From a virus: a stretch of DNA of 24,326 nt. The stretch spans positions 1-24,326 of the IMG/VR virus record IMGVR_UViG_3300030103_000371; one strand, given 5' to 3'. Positions 2 to 17,950 of this stretch are shown piece by piece. Under the pieces are notes generated by a model that was given only the letters and a program-made list of their open reading frames with translations, searched no databases and had not been told where the DNA came from. The position numbers and the translations under genes were made by a program. Each line of letters starts with the position of its first letter. Position 1 is the first letter of the stretch.

Positions 2-97
2 CGTAAGGATGACGTTAAGGATGATATGCACGAGTTGATGGATGCACTAAGAAGATTAGAAGATAAGTTAGACAAAGTATTAATAGGAAATAGATAA
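2..97 (+). CDS. 3' end of an unidentified phage gene (partial)
   Basis: The frame is open from the left edge and ends with TAA at 95-97, whose last A is the first base of the next gene's ATG (TAATG). The 31 visible residues are highly charged (Lys/Asp/Glu/Arg) with Leu/Met/Val spaced as in a short amphipathic helix, and end in LIGNR. The first codons carry a near repeat, RKDD then VKDD. This looks like the helical C-terminus of a structural-module protein, but the family cannot be identified from this fragment. The start-stop overlap implies translational coupling to the downstream virion gene. Confidence 0.6.
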   Translation, partial: RKDDVKDDMHELMDALRRLEDKLDKVLIGNR

Positions 98-2367
98 TGA
101 ATCAAGCTCAGTTACAAAGTGAACTCACTAAATCTATAGCAGAAAATTTAGGATATACAGGACCTATAAGTGGGTTTCAGAAGTTTATAATGTCTAACCA
201 ACCTGCTTCACAAAGATACGCAGGTATATTAAAAGCAATAGATATATCTAAGAATACAGCAAAGAAAAAAGCACAGAGACAAACAGGTACACCTATGCCA
301 CAGATGGCAGAGGGTGGAATGCCTATGCGTAGGTTTGACCAACGACAAGAGACAGAAGGTGTAGGAGCATTTGTACCACCACCTATGCAATCTTTTCAAG
401 TTGGTGGTATGGCTAGAACAAATCAAGTGCCTAGAGATGTTGGCTTTGGTGACACTGTTGGTTCTGACCCTAATCAACTATTCTCTATTCCACCAGAACA
501 AAATCCGGAATTAACATTAAGACAAGGACCTGCTCTAGTTACAACTCCAACTAATCAACCCCCTGCTCAAAAGTTTGATAAAGTAAAAAGAGCAAAGGTA
601 GACACTAATCAATTCTTATCAGATGGTACAACTCCTAATCCTAACTATGGTCAACCCATAACAGATGCACAGGGTAATATTCTCACAGAAGAAGTTGCAC
701 CTAACATAGGTGACATAAGTGCTCAAATGATAACTCAACCGGGTTTACCTGCAGGAGCAGTAATACAAACTGTAAGTCCTAGTTCTACTGCAGAGACACT
801 AGTTGCTAGTGGAACAGGTCAGGTAGCAGGTGACTTTGCTGTGCCTACAACTGTGGCAGGAACAGCTACTGCAATACCACAGACAACCACCGATGCTAAT
901 TTAATACAAGCACAACAAGCATCTAAACAAATAGAAGATGCAGTAGCTAAAACTCAAACTGCTCAAGGTAAAATTTTACCACAGGCACAAATACAGGCAC
1001 AACAACAAACTGCTAGTTCTATAGGGCAACTTAATGCCGCTCAAGGAGTAGCTAATCAAATAGTTAGTCCTGTGCAAAGACAAATACAACAAGGTGAGCT
1101 AGTTAGTGGTGTAGCAAATGCAGAAACAGCATCTAAATACACAGAACAGATACAAGCCGCAACTGCAACACCTTCAGAAAAAGCCACTGTAGCAGGACAA
1201 CTTGCTACCTTAACTGCAGACTTCGATGCAACCAATCCACCTGCATGGGCAGCAGGAGCGATAAGAGGTGTTCAAGCAGTCATGCAACAAAGAGGTCTTG
1301 GTGCTTCTAGTATAGCAGGACAGGCACTTGTACAGGCTGCAATGGAATCAGCATTACCTATTGCACAAGCAGATGCTAGAACTGTGGCAACATTTGAAAC
1401 ACAAAACTTATCTAATAGACAGCAAAGAGCTATGTTAGCTGCTCAACAAAGAGCACAGTTTATAGGTCAAGAGTTTGACCAAGCATTTCAAGCAAGAGTT
1501 CAGAACGCATCTAGAATAGGAGATATTGCTAATACTAATTTTAATGCACAGCAACAAATAACTTTAGAGAACTCTCGTGCCGCAAATACTATGAATCTTA
1601 ATAACTTGTCTAACAGACAGGCATTAGTAATAGCAGAAGCATCAGCACTAGCTAACTTAGATTTATCTAACTTATCGAATAGACAACAGTCTGCTGTTCA
1701 GAATGCTCAGAACTTTTTGCAAATGGATATGGCTAATTTATCTAATCAACAACAAACTAATATGTTTAATGCTCAACAGAGAATACAGTCTTTATTCACT
1801 GACCAAGCCGCAGAGAATGCGTCAAGACAGTTCAACGCAACTTCACAGAATCAGGTTGACCAATTCTTTGCATCATTAGGACAACAAGCTAATCAGTTTA
1901 ATGCTACGCAGATAAATGCTCAAGAGCAATATAATGCAGGTCAAAGAAATACTTTAGAGAGATTTAATGCAGAACTAAACAATCAGCGTGACCAATTTAA
2001 TGCACAGAACCAAATGGTTATTGCACAGTCAAACGCTAATTGGAGAAGACAGATAGCTACACAGGCTACTGCGGCAACTAACAGAGCAAACGAATTAAAT
2101 GCACAAGCTGTGCTTGGTTTAAGTAATCAAGCCTATAATAACTTGTGGCAATATTATGGTGACACTATGGAGTGGGCATGGACTTCTGCAGAGAATGAAA
2201 GAAGTCGTGTGATTGAACTAGCAAAAGAACAGCTTAGGGCTGATTCAAGTGCAGATATACAAAAGATGAAGAATGACTATAACTCATCTGCGGCTTTTGG
2301 TGGACTCATTGGTAAATTCATCACAGGTGGACTACTTGGTGGTGGTGGTTTTGGTGGACTATTCTAA
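97..2367 (+). CDS. Q/N/A-rich putative virion (internal or ejection) protein with 22-residue repeats
   Basis: This 756-aa protein lacks cysteine-rich or enzymatic motifs. Residues 1-60 are basic. Residues 60-110 are Met/Gly/Pro-rich and contain two GGM motifs (AEGGMPMRR and QVGGMAR). Residues about 140-270 are low-complexity Thr/Pro/Gln. From about 270 the chain is Ala/Gln-rich and helical, with a segment around residues 380-430 (PPAWAAGAIRGV, then RGLGASSIAGQA) that I recall from marine podovirus structural proteins. Residues 437-656 are a 22-residue tandem repeat. The C-terminus is Gly-rich and hydrophobic (GGLLGGGGFGGLF), as in a membrane-interacting tail. It overlaps both neighbours by TAATG. 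A role as an ejected virion protein is inferred from composition and from its place in the structural block. A tail-fibre or adaptor role is not excluded. Confidence 0.55.
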   Translation: MNQAQLQSELTKSIAENLGYTGPISGFQKFIMSNQPASQRYAGILKAIDISKNTAKKKAQRQTGTPMPQMAEGGMPMRRFDQRQETEGVGAFVPPPMQSFQVGGMARTNQVPRDVGFGDTVGSDPNQLFSIPPEQNPELTLRQGPALVTTPTNQPPAQKFDKVKRAKVDTNQFLSDGTTPNPNYGQPITDAQGNILTEEVAPNIGDISAQMITQPGLPAGAVIQTVSPSSTAETLVASGTGQVAGDFAVPTTVAGTATAIPQTTTDANLIQAQQASKQIEDAVAKTQTAQGKILPQAQIQAQQQTASSIGQLNAAQGVANQIVSPVQRQIQQGELVSGVANAETASKYTEQIQAATATPSEKATVAGQLATLTADFDATNPPAWAAGAIRGVQAVMQQRGLGASSIAGQALVQAAMESALPIAQADARTVATFETQNLSNRQQRAMLAAQQRAQFIGQEFDQAFQARVQNASRIGDIANTNFNAQQQITLENSRAANTMNLNNLSNRQALVIAEASALANLDLSNLSNRQQSAVQNAQNFLQMDMANLSNQQQTNMFNAQQRIQSLFTDQAAENASRQFNATSQNQVDQFFASLGQQANQFNATQINAQEQYNAGQRNTLERFNAELNNQRDQFNAQNQMVIAQSNANWRRQIATQATAATNRANELNAQAVLGLSNQAYNNLWQYYGDTMEWAWTSAENERSRVIELAKEQLRADSSADIQKMKNDYNSSAAFGGLIGKFITGGLLGGGGFGGLF
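1405..2064 (+). repeat. Ten-unit 22-residue (66-bp) protein-level repeat
   Basis: Within the 756-aa virion protein, residues 437-656 fall into ten consecutive 22-residue units without insertions. NLSNRQQ or a variant opens the units at residues 437, 503 (NLSNRQA), 525 and 547 (NLSNQQQ). Intervening units begin with related residues such as NFNAQQQ and NAQNQM. Later units carry FNA at matching positions (RQFNAT, NQFNAT, ERFNAE). Twenty-two residues equal two hendecads, the period of long right-handed or amphipathic helices. The DNA copies have diverged, so this is an old repeat and not a recent tandem duplication. Confidence 0.75.
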
Positions 2368-2588
2368 TGGAAACAAATTTAGGAAGTAAAATATATCAAC
2401 AGTTTGATGCTATGTTAAAAGATAAGCCTGAAGAAGCAGAAGAAAAGATGGGTGGCTTACTAACTAGAACAATGCCTAAGAAAAATAAAATGGGTATGGG
2501 TTCTAAAAATGACATAAACAAACGAGTTGCAAGTTATATGATGCAAATAAGAGAGAGAAGAGAAAGTATAAAAAATGGCAGAAGTTAA
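2367..2588 (+). CDS. Small basic structural-module protein, unknown function
   Basis: A 73-aa, strongly charged protein. Its N-terminus is helical (GSKIYQQFDAMLKD). The middle is Met/Lys/Gly-rich (TRTMPKKNKMGMG) and the C-terminus is Arg/Lys-rich (QIRERRESIKNGRS). No domain is recognised. The ATG shares a base with the TAA of the upstream virion gene (TAATG), and its own end overlaps the next gene by 14 bases, so it lies inside a coupled string of virion genes. A small virion or assembly protein is the most one can infer. Confidence 0.6.
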   Translation: METNLGSKIYQQFDAMLKDKPEEAEEKMGGLLTRTMPKKNKMGMGSKNDINKRVASYMMQIRERRESIKNGRS

Positions 2589-3072
2589 TGAGGTAACATT
2601 TGATGCACCTATCCCGGGTCAATCACTAACTCATGAAGTGGGTGCTCGACCTTGGCAACAACCTGCTCAGTATGCAACTGTAGAAGAAGCATTAGAGTGG
2701 TATCTTTCTCGCTTTGAACAGCGTGATACAACCGAAGAATTACTAAACGTAATGGAAATGGGTATACCTATCACTGTAATAGCCAATTCCCTGCAGTTAG
2801 GAGCAGTTCTAGAGGGGGTACACTCAATAGACGTAGGTATACTAGTCACTCCTATTTTAATTGAGATGATGGCTTATATAGCCGAACAGAATGGCATAGA
2901 CTTTAAGATAGGAAATGAAGAAGAAGAAAGTCCTAAACCATCTGAATCATTGATATCTGCAGCAATACAAGGATTAGAAGAAAGAGGGGTAGTAGGTGAT
3001 GAAGAGCCTACAGAAGAAGTAGAAGAAGAAACTGAAGAAGAACCTAAAGGACTTATGGCGAGGAGACAGTAA
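2575..3072 (+). CDS. Conserved marine-phage protein with acidic C-terminus
   Basis: A 165-aa protein. It opens with a proline/aromatic segment (IPGQSLT followed by ARPWQQPAQY) that I recall from other marine podovirus and myovirus proteins of unknown function. A helical core follows (EEALEWYLSRF, IPITVIANSLQLGAVLEG). The last 60 residues are very acidic (repeated Glu between about 110 and 155) and end in a basic GLMARRQ. A GGAG about 7 bases before its end serves the next gene. The acidic tail and location in the structural block suggest a virion-assembly or chaperone-like partner, but no function is established. Confidence 0.6.
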   Translation: MAEVNEVTFDAPIPGQSLTHEVGARPWQQPAQYATVEEALEWYLSRFEQRDTTEELLNVMEMGIPITVIANSLQLGAVLEGVHSIDVGILVTPILIEMMAYIAEQNGIDFKIGNEEEESPKPSESLISAAIQGLEERGVVGDEEPTEEVEEETEEEPKGLMARRQ

Positions 3073-4607
3073 TGGGATTTAATTTTGGTGCATTTTTAGG
3101 TGGTGCGGCTACACAGATTACTAAGGATATTGACGAGGAAGAAAAGAGAGTCAAGCTCCGTATGGATAAAATCTTGGACAGGCAACAAGAATTAACTATA
3201 CAAAATCAAAAAGAGTTCAAAGCCAAAAAAGAAAAAGTAACAAATCAAATGAATGCACTCGTACCTTTATTTGGTGGAGGTCCTGATGCTATTGCTAAAG
3301 CTAGAAGTATCGTAGCAGGTGGTGATAATCACTATAACTTTATGTTTAGTAAACTCTCTACAGCACAAGAGAGAGGTGATGATATTAATCAGATATACAG
3401 TTTAATACCTAACAAAGACGCAGTAGGTTTTGAAAGTGTAGAGGATGCCACAGGTAGTTTAGTTAAGATGGCAGAGTTACCTGAAATAACTATAGGTGAA
3501 TCTTCTAACATGGCTAAATTATTTGGTATAGACCAAAAGGCATACTTTAATAGAGAACAACAAAAGTTAGTAGAGGTCGGTCAAATAATCTCAGGAGAGA
3601 AAAAACCTGCAGAAACAAACTTTGCTCAAGGTAAATTAAATTTAGACAAGATGAGTAAAGACTTTAAATCTGTATCCGAGATGCAAGATGCAAAGTTTGC
3701 TAATGAGTTAAAAAAGCTAACTCCGGGAAGTGAAGAATATAAAGCTAAATTTGCAGAGTATGAAACATTTAAAAAGGATGAAGCTAAATTAACTGCAAGT
3801 TATTTAATAGCTAAATATAAAGAAGATAATGACAAGGGAGACGGATTATCTGCTGCTTCTATGCAAATAGGATGGCAAAAAGAAAAGAAAGCAATTCAAG
3901 ATAAGTTTGGAGATAGGTTAACTTTACCAAATGGAGAGATAGTTAGAAAGGGTAGTCCAAAGTTTGATGTTGAAGTAAAAAAGAAAGTGGATGCATATAA
4001 CTATGAGTATGTTAAAGGTATTGTAACAGACAAAACAGGTCTAAATGTAAATGGACTAGCAGTTATCAGTGCTAACCCTGAACTTAAAAACTTATTACCT
4101 CAAGTTAAAAAAGACTTAGAAGATTCAATAGCTACAGGTGATAAAGATATTACCTTAAAGCCGGGTCAAAAAATAGGTAATCTTTTGAAAAAAGAAAGTA
4201 GTAAAAATTTATCTTTAGGAATAATATCAGAAATTAAAAACATAAAACCTAACATATCTAAAGCACAGATATTTGATGTATTAGAGGCAAAATATCCTAA
4301 AGCAGATTCTGAAACTCAAGAAGACTATGACCAAAGAATGAAAAGATTAATTGACTTAGCTTTCAAAGGCTTTGAAGTAGGGGAAGCAAAGAAAAAGAAA
4401 AGACTAGAAGATAAGAAAAAATTATTTGGACCTGATAAACCTGAAAAAACAGAAAGAAAACTAGATTCTAAAGGTAATGCTCCAAGTAGAAACGATATAG
4501 TAAAAGGTTTAGGTTTAGTAATAACTGATGAAGAAAAAAGAAAGTTAAAAGAATGGGATGATTTATATGGAGAAGACTTTAACCCTAATGGAACTCCTAA
4601 AAAATAA
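3072..4607 (+). CDS. Putative internal virion protein, 511 aa
   Basis: The N-terminus is a short Gly/Ala hydrophobic patch (GFNFGAFLGGAATQ) followed by a charged predicted coiled coil at residues about 18-60 (EEEKRVKLRMDKI, KEFKAKKEKV). The rest is Lys/Glu-rich and helical, with Lys-rich tracts near the C-terminus (EAKKKKRLEDKKKL). No catalytic motif is visible. The start is well supported by AGGAG seven bases upstream and TAATG overlap with the preceding stop. It sits directly before the 1192-aa protein, the position often held by smaller internal core proteins in T7-like genomes. The in-frame sequence after the stop looks like more coding sequence of the same style (see 4608-4655). Confidence 0.55.
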   Translation: MGFNFGAFLGGAATQITKDIDEEEKRVKLRMDKILDRQQELTIQNQKEFKAKKEKVTNQMNALVPLFGGGPDAIAKARSIVAGGDNHYNFMFSKLSTAQERGDDINQIYSLIPNKDAVGFESVEDATGSLVKMAELPEITIGESSNMAKLFGIDQKAYFNREQQKLVEVGQIISGEKKPAETNFAQGKLNLDKMSKDFKSVSEMQDAKFANELKKLTPGSEEYKAKFAEYETFKKDEAKLTASYLIAKYKEDNDKGDGLSAASMQIGWQKEKKAIQDKFGDRLTLPNGEIVRKGSPKFDVEVKKKVDAYNYEYVKGIVTDKTGLNVNGLAVISANPELKNLLPQVKKDLEDSIATGDKDITLKPGQKIGNLLKKESSKNLSLGIISEIKNIKPNISKAQIFDVLEAKYPKADSETQEDYDQRMKRLIDLAFKGFEVGEAKKKKRLEDKKKLFGPDKPEKTERKLDSKGNAPSRNDIVKGLGLVITDEEKRKLKEWDDLYGEDFNPNGTPKK

Positions 4608-4655
4608 AAAAGAAGATATAAACCAGATGGTACATTAAAAGATGAATTTAAATAA
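4608..4655 (+). other. In-frame coding-like extension beyond the stop of the 511-aa gene
   Basis: Directly after the TAA at 4605-4607 the same frame stays open for 15 more codons, ending at TAA 4653-4655. The extension reads YKPDGTLKDEFK at its end, echoing the last residues of the gene before the stop (FNPNGTPKK). The stop follows an A-rich run. Possibilities are a recent nonsense mutation, a sequencing error, occasional readthrough, or chance. It overlaps the start of the next gene at 4642, which has only a weak ribosome binding site. Confidence 0.3.
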
Positions 4656-7600
4656 TGATAGATTAAATTCTCTTTTGTCCTCTCTAGATGATGAAGAAGA
4701 AGAATCTACTATCACTATAGAAGAAGAAAAAGAGAAGCCACAAATAAATAAATTAGATTCTATTCTATCGTCACTAGACGAAGAGGAGAAGCCTACCCTA
4801 GACCTACAAGAAACACAAGTTCCTCGTGTTGATGTAGACTATGAAGAAGAAACACGAGACCTATCCCAAAAGAAAACCTTCCAAGAATTTGTAACTGATA
4901 AAAACTTTCTAAGAGAAGCAGACTTATATATGCAGTCTCGCTTTGGAAAGGATGATGGCAGACAAGCCGATGAATCAGACAAAGAGTTCACCAAAAGATT
5001 TATAGAACATTACAGACACGTAAATGGTAATACACTTGACTTGATGAGTCAGGTGGATTGGACTCGTGGTGCATCCAATGCAGATAAAGCTAGATATGGT
5101 GCTTTATTTAGAGATATGGAAAGACTGCCTGACTTCTATGAAGAAGGTGGCACAGGTACGTTTGATGCATTGATGGATTATGGAGAGGGTTTACTTACAG
5201 ACCCACTTACCTACTTTGGTTTTGGTGCAGGTGCTGTGGCTAAGTTTGGTGCTACTAAAGCTGCCAAGAAGCTAATATTAGATAATGTAGCAAAGGGTAT
5301 GACCAAAGAAGCTGCCACTGAAGCAGCTAAAAAACAATCTCTAAAAATAGGATTAAAAGCTAGTGCTAAACCTTTAGCTGTAGAGACAGCAGTCGCTTCA
5401 GGTGAAGGTGCTTATGCTGCTTCAGCAGGAGCAGAGCTTGATGCAGAAGCAGGTATAAGAGAAGCATATGGTCTAGAGGACAAAGCTAGTGCAGAAGAGA
5501 TAGCTATTACAGGTGGTATTACAGGTGCTTTGACTTTAGGACTAGGTGCTTTTGCTGTACCTGCTATAGGTAAGTTAGGAATGTTTGACGCTAAAAGAAA
5601 TATTGACTTACAGCAAACAGTAAAAGAAGGTTTAGATAAAAAGCTAAGAGCAAAGGCACAAAAGGGAAATGTTACTAAAGAACAGCTAGATGAGTTTGAC
5701 CCAATAAATGAATCAAAGATATTAGATGATATTAGAAACATCGATGAGAGTGTAGCAAAAAGAAAAGAAGATTTAAAGAAGGGAAGAGAAACAATAGAAA
5801 AACTCGACCCTGCCACAGATATTACAGAAGCTAATTTGTCAGCAGAGATACAAGAAAAGGTAGCTAAGATATCTATAGATGTAGTCAAACAGATGTCAGG
5901 GTCAAACGATAAAGTTGTTAGAGCTTTTTTTGAAGACTTAAAATCAGGTTATGCATCTAGAAAAGATAAGACCATGAATCTTACTATGATGATGATAAAA
6001 AAGCTAGACGATTTAAAAACAGGTGGCATAGCTATAGAAGATTTTGACAGGATTATAGCTAGGTCAGGTTTAAGTGCTGAAGAATTTGCAAATGCTTATG
6101 GTGCTACTAGAAGTAAAGTCGGTTCTGATTTAAGAAAAGACAGTGACTTTGGTAAAATGATGAGAGAGCTTGTAGACTTTGACCCTAAACTAAAACAAGA
6201 GTTTGATAAAAAGTTTGGAAAGATAGACCCAACAACAAATATGCTAAGTAAAGCTCATGATATTATGATGAGACTTGATAGAGAACGTAGAGCCTTGATG
6301 GTTACCCAGTTATCTACAACTATGCGTAACGTGGCTACAGGTGCTATGAGATTAACAATGGAAGCAGGTTCTAATCTTGTAGAGTCAAGTGTGTATAATA
6401 TAGGTAGAGGATTAAATAGTGCATTAAAAGGTGAGATTAGTGCTAAAGGGGTACAAAAAGGTTTTACTGATATATTTAGGGATACTTTTGGTACACTTGG
6501 CAATGTAGTAGGCACAGGTTTAGGTGGTATAAGAACAACAGAAGTAGCTGAAAACTTACTGCGTTATAATCCTATGTTATTAAGACAGTTAGATAGGTCT
6601 TTACAAGAGGTAGGAGCAGACCAAAGTCTAAGTGCATTTACTAGATTTCTAAACAAAGCTAATATGGCTCAAGATATAGTGTTTAGAAAGGCAGTTTTTA
6701 CTGCTAACATAGACAAACAACTAAGACGAATGGGAACTAACGCATTAGAAGTCGCAGTTAGTGGTAAAACACTACCAACTGAAATGCTAAAAAATGCAAT
6801 GGAAGAGTCTTTATACTTTACCTTTGCTAGAATGCCTAAAGCAGGTACAGGTGATAAGCCACTAGACACTCTAGGTTCTCACTTTGTAAAGATAAACGAA
6901 GCATTAGGTCCTTTGCCCGGATTAGTTGGTATACCTGCAGGTACAAGTGCATTTCCATACACTAGATTTATGGTCAATGCCATGCAGTTTAACTTACAAT
7001 ATCAACCCGGAAGTGTGTTGGCTGCTTTTTGGAATGCAGGTGCAGGTTGGAATAATTTACGTAAAGGAAAACTAGATGCTAATTTTAAAGAGTTAGGCGA
7101 GAAGCAAATAGCTAAAGCTAGAGACCAATTAGGTAGAGGTATTGTGGGTTCAGCTGCTTTATTAGCTGCCTATAAATATAGGAAAGAAAGCCAAGATACT
7201 AATTGGTATGAGATGAAAAGTGATGATGGTAGAACTGTAGATATAAGACCTTTCTTTCCACTAGCTCCATATATGATAGTGGGTGACCTATGGGCAAAGT
7301 ATCAAGAGGGTACGTTAAGGTCAGGCGAAGTTATGGGTAACTTGTTTGAAGGTGTGACAGGCACTATGATGAGAGCAGGTGCTAGTGAGTATGTAACAGA
7401 AAACCTATTCTTTGCATTAGGTGGAGTAGAAGATTTTAACTCTAGAGATGGAGAAAGAACAGGTGAGATAGTTGCAGGTTATATAGGAGAGTTAGTTGGT
7501 GGTGCGTTTACACCTGCAAGAGTATTAAAAGATATAGAAGCTGCTTTTAGTAAAGAAGCCGCCATTATACGTGACTCTAAACAAATAGAAGGTATAGGTA

Positions 7601-8220
7601 TAGAAAGACCTATGAAGACATTACAAAACTCTATACAAAGAAACTTACCATTCGTAAGTAAATATTTACCTGAAAAGCAGTTTGCTACTAGGTCAGGTCC
7701 TGTATATGAGCAAAGCTCAATAGGTAAGCAACTTACAGGTAGAAGATTTACACCTAAAAAGAATACTATAGAAGAAGAATTAGTTAGATTTGGAATGGAA
7801 GAGTTTGAGCTACTTACACCTACAGGTGACAAGACAGCAGACTCTTATGTAAAAAAGTTTTTAGGTAAGTTAGCAGAGGAAAACTTAACTAGAGAAATAA
7901 ACTCTGACTATTATCAAAGTTTATCTGATAAGAAAAGAGAAGCATCCTTTGCTAACAAGTTAAAATATTATAGAAAGATAGCTAAAGAGATGGGTGAGGA
8001 CTTAGCAACATCAGAAGCTAATCAAAAAGGTAAAAGTATTACTCCTTTTGATAGAGCTAAATATAATAAATTAACAAAGAGACAACGAAGATTAGCAGAT
8101 GAATATTACATGGAGCAATATGGTAGAAGTGTACTAGCGATGCAACAAGAAGAGCCTAATATAAATCATTTTTTAAATGCAGTTTTTATAGGCAGAGAAT
8201 TATCTCAAGCATTTCAATAA
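4642..8220 (+). CDS. Large putative internal virion / ejection protein, 1192 aa
   Basis: This is the largest gene in the window and closes the + strand structural block. Residues 8-50 hold a duplicated acidic motif (LNSLLSSLDDEEEE and LDSILSSLDEEE, 30 residues apart). Hydrophobic Gly/Ala segments occur near residues 175-205 and 285-312 (GGITGALTLGLGAFAVP) and near 830-850 (GIVGSAALLAAYKY). The stretch from about 550 (VTQLSTTMRN) and the later FRKAVFTANIDKQLRRMG resemble, from memory, large internal proteins of marine podoviruses. Size, position and amphipathic character parallel T7 gp16, which is ejected and helps form the channel for DNA entry. No transglycosylase catalytic motif was recognised. 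The start has only a weak A-rich leader. Confidence 0.6.
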   Translation: MNLNNDRLNSLLSSLDDEEEESTITIEEEKEKPQINKLDSILSSLDEEEKPTLDLQETQVPRVDVDYEEETRDLSQKKTFQEFVTDKNFLREADLYMQSRFGKDDGRQADESDKEFTKRFIEHYRHVNGNTLDLMSQVDWTRGASNADKARYGALFRDMERLPDFYEEGGTGTFDALMDYGEGLLTDPLTYFGFGAGAVAKFGATKAAKKLILDNVAKGMTKEAATEAAKKQSLKIGLKASAKPLAVETAVASGEGAYAASAGAELDAEAGIREAYGLEDKASAEEIAITGGITGALTLGLGAFAVPAIGKLGMFDAKRNIDLQQTVKEGLDKKLRAKAQKGNVTKEQLDEFDPINESKILDDIRNIDESVAKRKEDLKKGRETIEKLDPATDITEANLSAEIQEKVAKISIDVVKQMSGSNDKVVRAFFEDLKSGYASRKDKTMNLTMMMIKKLDDLKTGGIAIEDFDRIIARSGLSAEEFANAYGATRSKVGSDLRKDSDFGKMMRELVDFDPKLKQEFDKKFGKIDPTTNMLSKAHDIMMRLDRERRALMVTQLSTTMRNVATGAMRLTMEAGSNLVESSVYNIGRGLNSALKGEISAKGVQKGFTDIFRDTFGTLGNVVGTGLGGIRTTEVAENLLRYNPMLLRQLDRSLQEVGADQSLSAFTRFLNKANMAQDIVFRKAVFTANIDKQLRRMGTNALEVAVSGKTLPTEMLKNAMEESLYFTFARMPKAGTGDKPLDTLGSHFVKINEALGPLPGLVGIPAGTSAFPYTRFMVNAMQFNLQYQPGSVLAAFWNAGAGWNNLRKGKLDANFKELGEKQIAKARDQLGRGIVGSAALLAAYKYRKESQDTNWYEMKSDDGRTVDIRPFFPLAPYMIVGDLWAKYQEGTLRSGEVMGNLFEGVTGTMMRAGASEYVTENLFFALGGVEDFNSRDGERTGEIVAGYIGELVGGAFTPARVLKDIEAAFSKEAAIIRDSKQIEGIGIERPMKTLQNSIQRNLPFVSKYLPEKQFATRSGPVYEQSSIGKQLTGRRFTPKKNTIEEELVRFGMEEFELLTPTGDKTADSYVKKFLGKLAEENLTREINSDYYQSLSDKKREASFANKLKYYRKIAKEMGEDLATSEANQKGKSITPFDRAKYNKLTKRQRRLADEYYMEQYGRSVLAMQQEEPNINHFLNAVFIGRELSQAFQ

Positions 8221-14702: not shown

Positions 14703-16730
14703 TCAGCTAACGTCTTTAGTGTCAAGCCAATTATCACCTATTTTTGCTTCTAATAATAAAGGTACATTGAAGTCTATTCTAAACTGTTGATTTATAATAG
14801 TATTCATGTCTTCATTAATAGAATTTAAGATGAAAATAACTTTGTTAATCTCATCAGGGTGTACATCAATCACAATTGAATCATGTACTGTATTCACGAT
14901 ACAAGACTGTAATATTTTTAACCTGTCTTCTATGTGTGTAAGAACTAATGGAACTATATCTGCAGTTGCAAAACTCTGCACAGGATAATTCTTTATCTGT
15001 GTAAAGTGAGATACAGAACCATTCATTCTTCTTTGTACATCAGGAAAACTAAACTCTCTTCCTGATGGGGTTGTAATACTTCTCTTCTCTAGAGCTTCTT
15101 TAGCCAATCTGGAATGCCATGATGCGATTCCTTTGTACTTTTTGGTAAAGTCTTGGTAGTATTTTGCTTCTGCTTTTGTTCTACCAAACCCTGTCGCACC
15201 ATACAACGGAGCAAAGGTATGTGCTTTAGCATCTTGCCTAGTCGTACTTTGACCTGAAGCTGATATAACTTTAGCAGTATAAGAATGTACGTCAAATCCT
15301 GTTTTAATCTCATTCATAGCCACCTTATCTTGTGATAAATAGGCAGCAGTTCTAAACTCTAACTGTGCAAAGTCAGCTTCCAAAATCTTACCACCTTCCC
15401 AACGTGACACAAACACCTTCTTAACAGGAAACGTGCCACCTCTAGGCATATTCTGCATATTAGGGTCTGCTCCACTAAATCTGCCTGTTGCAGTTCTATG
15501 TTGCAATAGTCTTACGTGTAACATACCATCAGACTTTACGTGTGTCTTGATACCTTCAACAAAAGAAGATAGGTATGTATCTAGTGCAGACAATCTCTTG
15601 AGGTCTTGTAAGAAGTCACTAGCTTGTTTCATACCTGCTCTATTTGCCATGCCTTGTAGTACATCTAGATTACCTTTGGATACACCAAACCCATTTGCAG
15701 ATACCCACTTAGCATTTGGTGCGTTAAACTTTAATCCTGCGATTTGTTTAGTGGGAGTAAAAGTATAACCACTAGCACCACAAAGAACACAATTATTTTG
15801 ATTAGCGAATGGAGTTCCATTTTTTCTTACCTTTCTTATCTTGCCTGTACCATTACAGGTCTTGCACATAAGTGCTGTTGTTCTATATAAAATATCAGAG
15901 TTATCTCTGACTGCTCTCTTAAACTCATCATTAGCCATATGAGGAGTAAACTCATTTCCCCACATAGCTTTGTCTTTAGGTTTTCTACTATAGATAACCC
16001 ATGACATCTGTTCAGGACTGTTAAGATTGATAGGCATATCTCCCATTATTTTTCTAACTTGGGCAGACAGTCTTTTCTCTATATCTACCTTCTCTGTCTC
16101 AAACTCTTTTCTAACAGACTCTAACATAGTCTCATCCACTTTAAAACCATTTCTGTGTGTCTTAGCTAAAGTAACACACACTTTATTTGTTAGCAAAACT
16201 GTATCCATGAGATGAGCATATTTAGTAGAGTTAAGTTTCTTATACTGCTCGTCAGCTAACTGCTGTGTAGCGTGTAAGTCTGCAGATAAATACTGCCTTA
16301 ACTCTCCTCTAGGTATTTCATCTGTAGCATAACCCTTTGCAAAGTATTCCTTCAAGGTATCTTCTTTCTTAGTTTCTAAGTCATATCTCATTGCACAATC
16401 TTTGAGATGCAAAGGTTCTTTGATACCTCTTTGTAATATATACTCTGTAAGCATAGTATCAAAGACAGGACCTTCATACTTGAAGCCACATTCCCACATC
16501 CACATAAGGTCATATGCTATGTTATGTCCTATAAGGATTGTGGCTCTATCAAGCAAGTCTTGTATGTCAATATGCTGTGTGCCACCTGTATCCATATTAA
16601 ACAGATACTCGTTGCCTATGTCTGTCAAACATCCTACCATAACTAACTTGTTAGTAGGTTCGTATGGGTCGAGATGCATTCTGCCATCTCTTTTTGTTAC
16701 TGTATTTTCTACGTCTAATGTTAATTTCAT
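14703..16730 (-). CDS. Family A DNA polymerase with DnaJ-like zinc-finger insert
   Basis: A 675-aa replicative polymerase with 3'-5' proofreading. Exonuclease motifs are Asp6/Glu8 (LDVEN), GHNIAYDL at 68-75 and YLSAD at 147-151. Residues 289-320 carry CKTCNGTG and CVLCGASG (Cys289, 292, 314, 317), a DnaJ-type zinc finger. The polymerase domain shows GRFSGADPNMQNMP, motif A ADFAQLEFR (Asp453), motif B RQDAKAHTFAPLYG (Arg498, Lys502, Phe506, Tyr510) and motif C VHDS (Asp617). Phe506 corresponds to E. coli Phe762. The insert is the reported peculiarity of HMO-2011-type phages. ATG 16730 overlaps the helicase TGA as ATGA with GAGGT seven bases upstream. A longer frame from 16784 is not needed. 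Confidence 0.96.
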   Translation of the reverse strand: MKLTLDVENTVTKRDGRMHLDPYEPTNKLVMVGCLTDIGNEYLFNMDTGGTQHIDIQDLLDRATILIGHNIAYDLMWMWECGFKYEGPVFDTMLTEYILQRGIKEPLHLKDCAMRYDLETKKEDTLKEYFAKGYATDEIPRGELRQYLSADLHATQQLADEQYKKLNSTKYAHLMDTVLLTNKVCVTLAKTHRNGFKVDETMLESVRKEFETEKVDIEKRLSAQVRKIMGDMPINLNSPEQMSWVIYSRKPKDKAMWGNEFTPHMANDEFKRAVRDNSDILYRTTALMCKTCNGTGKIRKVRKNGTPFANQNNCVLCGASGYTFTPTKQIAGLKFNAPNAKWVSANGFGVSKGNLDVLQGMANRAGMKQASDFLQDLKRLSALDTYLSSFVEGIKTHVKSDGMLHVRLLQHRTATGRFSGADPNMQNMPRGGTFPVKKVFVSRWEGGKILEADFAQLEFRTAAYLSQDKVAMNEIKTGFDVHSYTAKVISASGQSTTRQDAKAHTFAPLYGATGFGRTKAEAKYYQDFTKKYKGIASWHSRLAKEALEKRSITTPSGREFSFPDVQRRMNGSVSHFTQIKNYPVQSFATADIVPLVLTHIEDRLKILQSCIVNTVHDSIVIDVHPDEINKVIFILNSINEDMNTIINQQFRIDFNVPLLLEAKIGDNWLDTKDVS

Positions 16731-17950
16731 GCACTGTACCTCGCTGTGTGTGGGTTGATGTTGCAGTTTATCATGCCATGCCAACCTGTAATTTTATTCT
16801 TAACAACATTCAAATGTCTCATGGTTGATTCTTCATCAATACCTTCAACACTTGCAGGTTGTCCTATTAATATCATCAAGTCTGCTTCAGCAGCCTTGCC
16901 TGTACGTGAGCCTTCCATCATTGCCTGATTAAGTCTCTGTCTACCCTCTGCTTCTGCATTGAGTTGTGACATGTAGAATATAACACAATTATATTGTTTT
17001 GCAATCTGTCTTGCATATATTGCATTTGCCTTGAGTGCTTCATCAGGTCTTGCATAACCTGCAGTACGTGCAAACTTATCTCCCATGTCAATCACAACCA
17101 CGTCAGGATTAACACTCTTACACATACTTTCTACCCAAGACATATCCTCGCCTGTCACATCTTTTATCTTTAGATTAGGAGATATTTCTTTGTACCTATC
17201 TCTTGCCTGTGATGGGTTATCTTTTATCTGATACTTATCCATGTTAGAGGATGCAGTCAGATATCTAAAACCTACCCTGTCATATGACTCTTCATTACAC
17301 AAGACAACACACTTAGCACCTTGTCTTGCAAAACCATTATCTCCTACAAGAAGAGATGCATGGAAGCTAGTCTTACCTGTATTAGGTCTTGCACCTACCT
17401 CAACAAGATAGCCACCATTCACACCTTCTACCTTTCTAGCTAACTCAGGTAGGTTAAATGACCACCTAGTCTGCTGACTCTGTTTAGCTATTAAAGTATC
17501 AAATGAGATATCATCCCATTCTATTTTCATCTCAGGTGTAAAGTCATCATTGTACTTCTCTAGTAAATCACGTAGAGGTTTCATACTTGTCTGCACACCA
17601 TTAACAAAGTCAAAGCCAAGATTAGCTACGTCTTCTCCAATAACTTGTTGGAACAGTTTGGACAACACATCCTGTGCTATGTCTGTTCCCATAGGCTTTT
17701 GTTTTTTAATATCGTTAAACAATGCAGAGTATCCTTGCTTCTGTGCAGTTGTCATAGCAGGATTGCTAGACAAGAACAGAGCTTCAAGTTCATCAGGTGT
17801 TACATCCCTGTCATACTTCCTCATTGCTTTATCTATTGTGTGCTTGATAGTCCTAGCATCTTTGCTAAATAATCTATCAGGACACCTTGCACCTCTATGG
17901 TCTTCATAGAAGTCTTTGTTCATTAAGCTACGTAGTAGTGCTAGTTCCAT
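16727..17950 (-). CDS. Replicative DNA helicase (DnaB/T7 gp4 helicase-like, RecA fold)
   Basis: The 407-aa protein unwinds the fork using NTP hydrolysis. Walker A is VEVGARPNTGKTSFHASL (about 183-200). NEESYDRVGFRYL follows, and Walker B is PDVVVIDMGDK with Asp288. The later FYMSQLNAEAEGRQ and EGSRTGKAAEADLMI fit the DnaB C-terminal core. The N-terminal 150 residues are helical and contain no primase motifs, so primase is separate (next gene upstream). AGGAG lies seven bases before ATG 17950. The gene begins inside the last 23 bases of the primase and ends in an ATGA overlap with DNA polymerase, so the three are translationally linked. Confidence 0.92.
   Translation of the reverse strand: MELALLRSLMNKDFYEDHRGARCPDRLFSKDARTIKHTIDKAMRKYDRDVTPDELEALFLSSNPAMTTAQKQGYSALFNDIKKQKPMGTDIAQDVLSKLFQQVIGEDVANLGFDFVNGVQTSMKPLRDLLEKYNDDFTPEMKIEWDDISFDTLIAKQSQQTRWSFNLPELARKVEGVNGGYLVEVGARPNTGKTSFHASLLVGDNGFARQGAKCVVLCNEESYDRVGFRYLTASSNMDKYQIKDNPSQARDRYKEISPNLKIKDVTGEDMSWVESMCKSVNPDVVVIDMGDKFARTAGYARPDEALKANAIYARQIAKQYNCVIFYMSQLNAEAEGRQRLNQAMMEGSRTGKAAEADLMILIGQPASVEGIDEESTMRHLNVVKNKITGWHGMINCNINPHTARYSA

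Follow-up and report, generated by a model that had tools for sequence, protein, structure and literature searches.

What role does the 756-residue repeat protein of this podovirus play, given that the records of its named relatives annotate the homologue as "hypothetical protein", with the one exception of "huntingtin"? The latter label, on a homologue at 2285–4876 of locus L097 (phage record MW202701), is apparently a misannotation, perhaps due to Gln-rich composition. The repeat gene comes from a marine podovirus of the HMO-2011 type, represented by a virus record of 24,326 bases, the whole of which was analysed and is called the window below. The window also encodes DNA polymerase A, ribonucleotide reductase, MazG, a DnaB-type helicase and an integrase, which fits a podovirus of the HMO-2011 group. 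The family A DNA polymerase (14703–16784, minus strand) shows a weak DnaJ-like cysteine-rich match at residues 305–342 (E 0.0004, below Pfam's cutoff).

Among 50,697 phage records, 27 matched the 756-residue protein, none reaching 80% query coverage. HMO-2011 gp25 ranked best (67% over 69% of the query); next came Roseobacter CRP phages and, further down, Pelagibacter HTVC phages. Sequence similarity, both anchor motifs and the junction described below place the window protein in the HMO-2011 gp25 family, together with homologues in CRP, HTVC, phiM6, RHph, CHOED, MQM1 and Slicky01 phages. Gp25 and the window protein are 66–67% identical over the matched part and both possess 20 repeats of 11 residues (hendecads), while gp25 and the other homologues differ from the window protein in N-terminal length and C-terminal extension. 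Some members carry a C-terminal "CWVAREVYG...W..FR" extension (L082 11746–13866; L027 6531–10034; L057 1599–4085), which the window protein lacks. The features of the gene and of those following it are:

97–2367, plus strand: 756-residue repeat protein, homologue of HMO-2011 gp25 (phage1322_25)
97–282, plus strand: N-terminal helical segment, residues 1–62 (pLDDT 86–96 by 10-residue block to residue 60)
1351–1377, plus strand: N anchor motif ALPIAQADA, residues 419–427
1354–1815, plus strand: N-arm, residues 420–573, 13 hendecads plus 10 residues; family dialect N[AL][QS][NA]xQQxx[LMVI]x
1801–1842, plus strand: conserved junction DQAAENASRQFNAT, residues 569–582; low-confidence break between predicted helices
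1816–2031, plus strand: C-arm, residues 574–645, 6 hendecads plus 7 residues; family dialect NAxxxNx[IVM][DE]QF
2032–2049, plus strand: C anchor motif NANWRR, residues 646–651
2050–2301, plus strand: predicted post-repeat helix, residues 652–735; W684 and R704 nearly invariant
2367–2588, plus strand: 73-residue ORF of the same cassette; homologue in 19 of 279 loci, the window's own included
2575–3072, plus strand: 165-residue likely partner gene; downstream homologue in 222/222 loci with room
3072–4607, plus strand: 511-residue cassette ORF; gp15-like position suggested by order and size
4642–8220, plus strand: 1192-residue cassette ORF; gp16-like position suggested by order and size; 21% identical to HMO-2011 gp22

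A preliminary description of this locus had seen ten helical units of 22 residues at 1405–2064, that is, residues 437–656 of the ORF, with NLSNRQQ-type openings. Direct reading of the protein bears out the openings, NLSNRQQ, NLSNRQA, NLSNRQQ and NLSNQQQ at residues 437, 503, 525 and 547 (spacing 66, 22 and 22). The predicted autocorrelation peak at 11 or 22 was likewise found: with BLOSUM62 scoring over residues 437–656, z was 8.0 at lag 22, 6.2 at 44, 6.0 at 33, 5.4 at 11 and 3.1 at 55, the next lag reaching 1.9. The highest z of any lag in any of 300 shuffles was 4.6, which lags 22, 44, 33 and 11 each exceed and of these five lag 55 alone does not. Within residues 1–436 and 657–756 the eight top lags include no multiple of 11. 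Asn occupies one fixed hendecad position in 14 of the 20 hendecads, the maximum in 2,000 shuffles being 10. The basic unit is 11 residues. A unit of 22 is rejected on two grounds: there is a peak at lag 33 as well, and the hendecad count of some relatives is odd. The register is kept as had been described, but over a repeat that extends from about residue 420 to 646 and in which several units (459–480, 569–590) match only weakly, which makes ten a generous count. At the DNA level the repeat consists of diverged units and not of a tandem array: TRF over 1200–2367 found no array of 33 or 66 nt, its sole report being a weak 12-nt array at 1468–1502. Gln accounts for 19% of the repeat, Asn for 15% and Arg for 6%; Lys is absent, and Asn and Gln together make up about one third.

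Is the 11-residue unit also a constraint on the family? Relatives were collected by scanning IMG/VR, the queries being the window protein and alignments A1 and A2 (the best 80 of 541, 562 and 281, respectively), to which 22 named phage records and 16 MAG contigs from GTDB genomes were added. Of the resulting 279 rows two are the window itself (q and L001), and some phages are represented by more than one record; 233 rows are unique by flank and arm length. Since the sample comprises the best 80 per scan, picked by similarity, rare off-lattice members may be missed. When 84 relatives were aligned with the window protein by MAFFT, 81 of them showed no gaps between residues 400 and 747; the gaps in the distant HTVC103P, MQM1 and phiM6 homologues are net multiples of 11 inside the repeat, the other gaps lying outside it.

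Repeat length was taken as the distance separating two conserved motifs, LPIAQ and NxxWRR. By regular expression 243 of the 279 rows could be measured and all were 6 mod 11, as were 130/130 once near-duplicates of more than 90% identity were dropped. With flank HMMs built from those 130 representatives, 275 rows were measurable and the anchor-to-anchor length was 6 mod 11 in every one, the 14 different lengths spanning 116–534 residues (10 to 48 hendecads). The remaining rows were L276 (cut at its 5' end), L097, L278 and L279. L278, a Luteibacter MAG contig of 393,600 bases, is a distant match on a long bacterial contig through the N-terminal anchor only, and is possibly a prophage relative with a different repeat region.

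The junction, consensus QAAxNAxxQFNA (modelled by an HMM on 72 of the 130 representatives), divides the repeat into two arms. From LPIA to the junction the N-arm is 10 mod 11 in 275/275 rows (11 distinct lengths, 3–39 hendecads), and from the junction to NxxWRR the C-arm is 7 mod 11, again in 275/275 (7 distinct lengths, 5–14 hendecads). The arm lengths vary independently, giving 20 combinations in the 275 rows. At least 16 length changes are required to produce the observed arm states, and Fitch parsimony on a 138-column flank tree of the 233 unique rows gave at least 15 + 12; were indel sizes random, sixteen on-lattice steps would have a probability, by rough arithmetic, of about 11^-16. Flank identities are as low as 16% in a sample of 60 rows.

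Other stretches of the same proteins served as controls among the 130 representatives. From the start to LPIA there were 99 distinct lengths in 122 rows, and from NxxWRR to the stop 45 in 128 rows, all 11 residues mod 11 being occupied in both. AAQG to PxWA showed 17 distinct lengths in 55 rows and nine of the 11 residues, 30 of the 55 rows falling at one residue. PxWA to LPIA is nearly constant at 36–38 residues, yet single-residue changes occur there.

The longest N-arms, in L272 (439 residues), L273 (329) and L083 (219), amount to 39, 29 and 19 hendecads, exact ten-hendecad steps which may be chance, two of the three lengths being singletons. Duplications of 110 residues were considered as their source and rejected: the top lag of L272 is not 110, and the top eight lags of L273 do not include it. 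Nor does the repeat length appear to be a simple ruler of envelope thickness, or to be set simply by the host, as one of four Pelagibacter phages has 14 hendecads in all and the other three have 28, and the N-arm spans 3–39 hendecads across the family.

AlphaFold2 models were examined for the window protein (using 86 relatives) and for its homologue in Vibrio phage CHOED. The former has helices at residues 405–482, 490–575 and 582–735, separated by breaks at 483–489 and 576–581, with a mean pLDDT of 67, a pTM of 0.29 and 10-residue blocks of 44 to 85 over the repeat. The latter has helices at 171–255, 263–381 and 385–459, with a mean pLDDT of 69.4 and a pTM of 0.27; most helix blocks score 76–91, and residues 241–290 around the junction 45–66. 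The conserved junction is thus a break in both models, and the window model is broken at 483–489 too. Long helices are thus predicted over the region, and not the disordered loops that, like a lack of 11/22 periodicity, would have refuted the preliminary description. Local confidence is moderate, and the global arrangement in both models is unreliable. The window model begins with a confident helical head (residues 1–62) and has a small beta-containing part (163–200); low-confidence linkers lie between these and the rod, and family members differ freely in N-terminal length. Foldseek found no match with E < 0.001 in the PDB for either model. In BFVD, five of the 46 matches listed were below 0.001, four of them carrying no name in the tables and one being a DUF4214 protein; match W8FPS3 belongs to CHOED.

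With in-register 11-residue periodicity and predicted alpha-helix over the region, the repeat has two of the features by which hendecad coiled coils are recognized, and together with family lengths locked to 11 these uphold the earlier reading of a long hendecad helix. The alternative then offered, a membrane-lipid-binding helix, is not supported. Lipid-binding 11/22-mer helices of the apolipoprotein or synuclein kind have Lys-rich amphipathic hendecads, while the window repeat has no Lys, is one-third Asn and Gln, and lacks a strong single amphipathic face.

On a hendecad wheel the hydrophobic face lies at about 100 degrees in the N-arm and at 294–298 in the C-arm, Gln at 188–200 degrees in both arms, and charged residues at 23–79. 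Because the hydrophobic faces of the two arms point opposite ways, pooled hydrophobicity lacks a 98-degree peak: the Kyte–Doolittle amplitude at the alpha-helical harmonic k=3 was 0.58 pooled (0.83 shuffled), and 1.4–1.5 per arm against 0.9 shuffled. The strongest harmonics were k=4 (131 degrees per residue) and k=5, both exceeding k=3, which is unlike the prediction for a simple amphipathic helix. Hendecad coiled coils have a hydrophobic stripe with 3-4-4 spacing; here F/L/I stand at positions 10, 3 and 7 in the C-arm, and the stripe of the N-arm is on the opposite face and includes a polar position. The wheel pattern is compatible with helices in contact with a neighbour on either side, an arrangement that a sheet or a large barrel would have.

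The gene context suggests a function. The repeat gene heads a cassette, and a gene of the 165-residue type lies downstream, directly or after other ORFs, in all 222 loci with room for it (L277–L279 having been excluded from this count beforehand), at a distance of up to 700 nt in 160 loci and more in 62. Its product is a likely partner of the repeat protein. The 165-residue protein (window 2575–3072) carries the pattern DAPIPGxxLTxELGxRPW..., and two of 22 scanned members match a PHROG, which is unnamed. The window, HMO-2011, phiM6 and MQM1 share the order repeat protein, about 165–186, about 500–615 and about 820–1190 residues. BLAST connects the 165-type proteins across all four phages and the 1192-type proteins between the window and HMO-2011 only, and among these four gave no links for the 511-type; for the latter two types the correspondence accordingly rests on order and size. 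Pfam and PHROG searches with the window cassette proteins returned no significant family, and neighbour families were uninformative.

Links to DNA ejection proteins come from other phages. In Salmonella phage 7-11 the genes from the annotated "DNA ejection protein" on specify 412, 299, 181, 545 and 650 residues, and in Cronobacter phage GAP52, from the same cassette start, 410, 280, 177, 548 and 1304 residues. Like the window protein, 7-11 gp20 and its GAP52 counterpart are the first gene of the cassette, with a similar size order following; the second gene, however, specifies 280–299 residues compared with 73 in the window. One of 39 family members scanned, that of CRP-212, matches phrog_4287 "DNA ejection protein" (5e-10), and the CRP-212 branch has a Peptidase_S74 C-terminus in common with 7-11 gp20, GAP52 and Pseudoalteromonas H6/1. 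In a profile comparison of this branch with the 7-11-type ejection proteins, the C-terminal S74 domain alone was shared. The helical repeat region could not be aligned with the 7-11-type proteins, in which the anchor motifs are absent or below significance, so homology of the helical part was rejected; since only S74 aligns and the window protein lacks that domain, the PHROG match is weak evidence for the latter. In coliphage SU10, gp20–24 are reported to be present in virions and lost from the genome-release intermediate (PMC9509320). They may be counterparts of the present cassette genes.

We suggest that the protein is probably an internal, ejected DNA-delivery protein of HMO-2011-type podoviruses, whose hendecad helices would form a register-matched rod or tube. 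Residues ~420–646 would form long alpha-helices of the hendecad repeat in two arms joined at the conserved junction, and helices from multiple copies would align laterally, in register as a straight or right-handed coiled coil, to give a rod or tube which, after ejection, may help DNA to cross the cell envelope. Only whole-hendecad indels would be tolerated, because neighbouring helices would be matched hendecad by hendecad. An ejected virion protein building a long rod or tube had been proposed in the preliminary description and is compatible with the data, gene order and the indirect links above being what argue for location in the virion and for ejection.

A rather improbable alternative is that the protein serves the tail as a fibrous, trimeric stalk or a needle-like component, a solid coiled-coil rod on or in the tail with no ejected conduit. 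Hendecads are common in solid coiled coils, and Peptidase_S74, the chaperone domain that folds trimeric tail fibres and spikes, is present in two of the 39 members scanned, although some proteins with a DNA injection or ejection annotation have it too. Genes upstream in HMO-2011 are annotated as tail fibre, but the cassette headed by the repeat gene has no such annotation in HMO-2011, phiM6 or MQM1. For the window protein itself Pfam and PHROG gave no significant family and no fibre or spike domain; its weak match to phrog_1958 "minor tail protein" (E 0.048) would suit a tail component.

It is unlikely that the protein is instead a soluble hairpin or bundle scaffold, with an assembly or chaperone role, in which the arms fold back at the junction. 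The break of both models at the junction would suit such a fold, as would the similar length of its flanks in the window model (405–575, including the break at 483–489, and 582–735); since the arms do not co-vary in length (N-arm 3–39, C-arm 5–14 hendecads), however, a full-length hairpin is not conserved.

Very improbably, the 11-residue steps reflect a mutation mechanism only, in-frame unequal crossing-over with no structural need: the steps do equal the repeat unit, as slippage would yield, and the window holds direct repeats, diverged in sequence, whose spacings of 330, 132, 231 and 660 are multiples of 33 nt, but two further spacings (390 and 225 nt) are off lattice, the units, devoid of any 33- or 66-nt array, are too diverged for easy slippage, and the lack of off-lattice arms in 275 rows, despite flank divergence and free lengths elsewhere in the protein, requires purifying selection even if crossing-over supplied the steps.

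The register-matched rod or tube that we favour has its closest working analogue in the H protein of phiX174, which is reported to form a 170-Ångstrom decameric tube of three hendecads followed by heptads, with Asn, Gln or Arg at 18 of 23 inward positions (PMC7354561). Like the window repeat, H is helical and rich in Asn, Gln and Arg; unlike it, H is an unrelated protein of a single-stranded DNA microvirus and consists mostly of heptads, whereas the present proteins have hendecads throughout (10–48). PDB sequence searches at E up to 1 gave no match, phiX174 H included. The Gln stripe is roughly opposite the charged stripe, an arrangement that, judged from the sequence, would be compatible with an amide/guanidinium lumen of the H-tube kind.

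Among podoviruses, the ejection cassettes T7 gp14-15-16 and P22 gp7-20-16 are assigned tunnel and membrane roles in PMC8954989, and like the window cassette they are a gene run closing with a large protein. The gp14-like proteins have 196–240 residues in the same text (PMC8954989), and the 756-residue repeat protein is far larger. Homology to T7 gp14 or gp15 was rejected, hhalign of the single T7 sequences against alignment A5 giving no match. The relatives CRP-1 to CRP-3 are likewise described as short-tailed phages infecting Gram-negative hosts (PMC6918029). A literature search by title and abstract openings, covering little subscription literature, found no account of this repeat.

A bolder and speculative reading, which we consider rather improbable, is that the amide-lined DNA tube arose a second time, independently, in this family, in the form of a large all-hendecad helical barrel guiding double-stranded DNA across the envelope. 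Many copies would assemble with Gln lining one face (~195 degrees), charge on the face across from it, and a hydrophobic seam along each side, at ~100 degrees in the N-arm and ~294 in the C-arm. If this were true, tube length would evolve by entire hendecads and, at full extension, would range from about 17 to 80 nm (116–534 residues at 0.15 nm, our own arithmetic).

For the family as a whole, a strict 11-residue lattice maintained over more than fourfold length variation is unusually clean evidence for a register-matched helical assembly. A "hypothetical protein" also gains a likely role and, in the gene found downstream at all 222 eligible loci, a likely partner, and the lattice makes the question of register matching testable in a laboratory phage.
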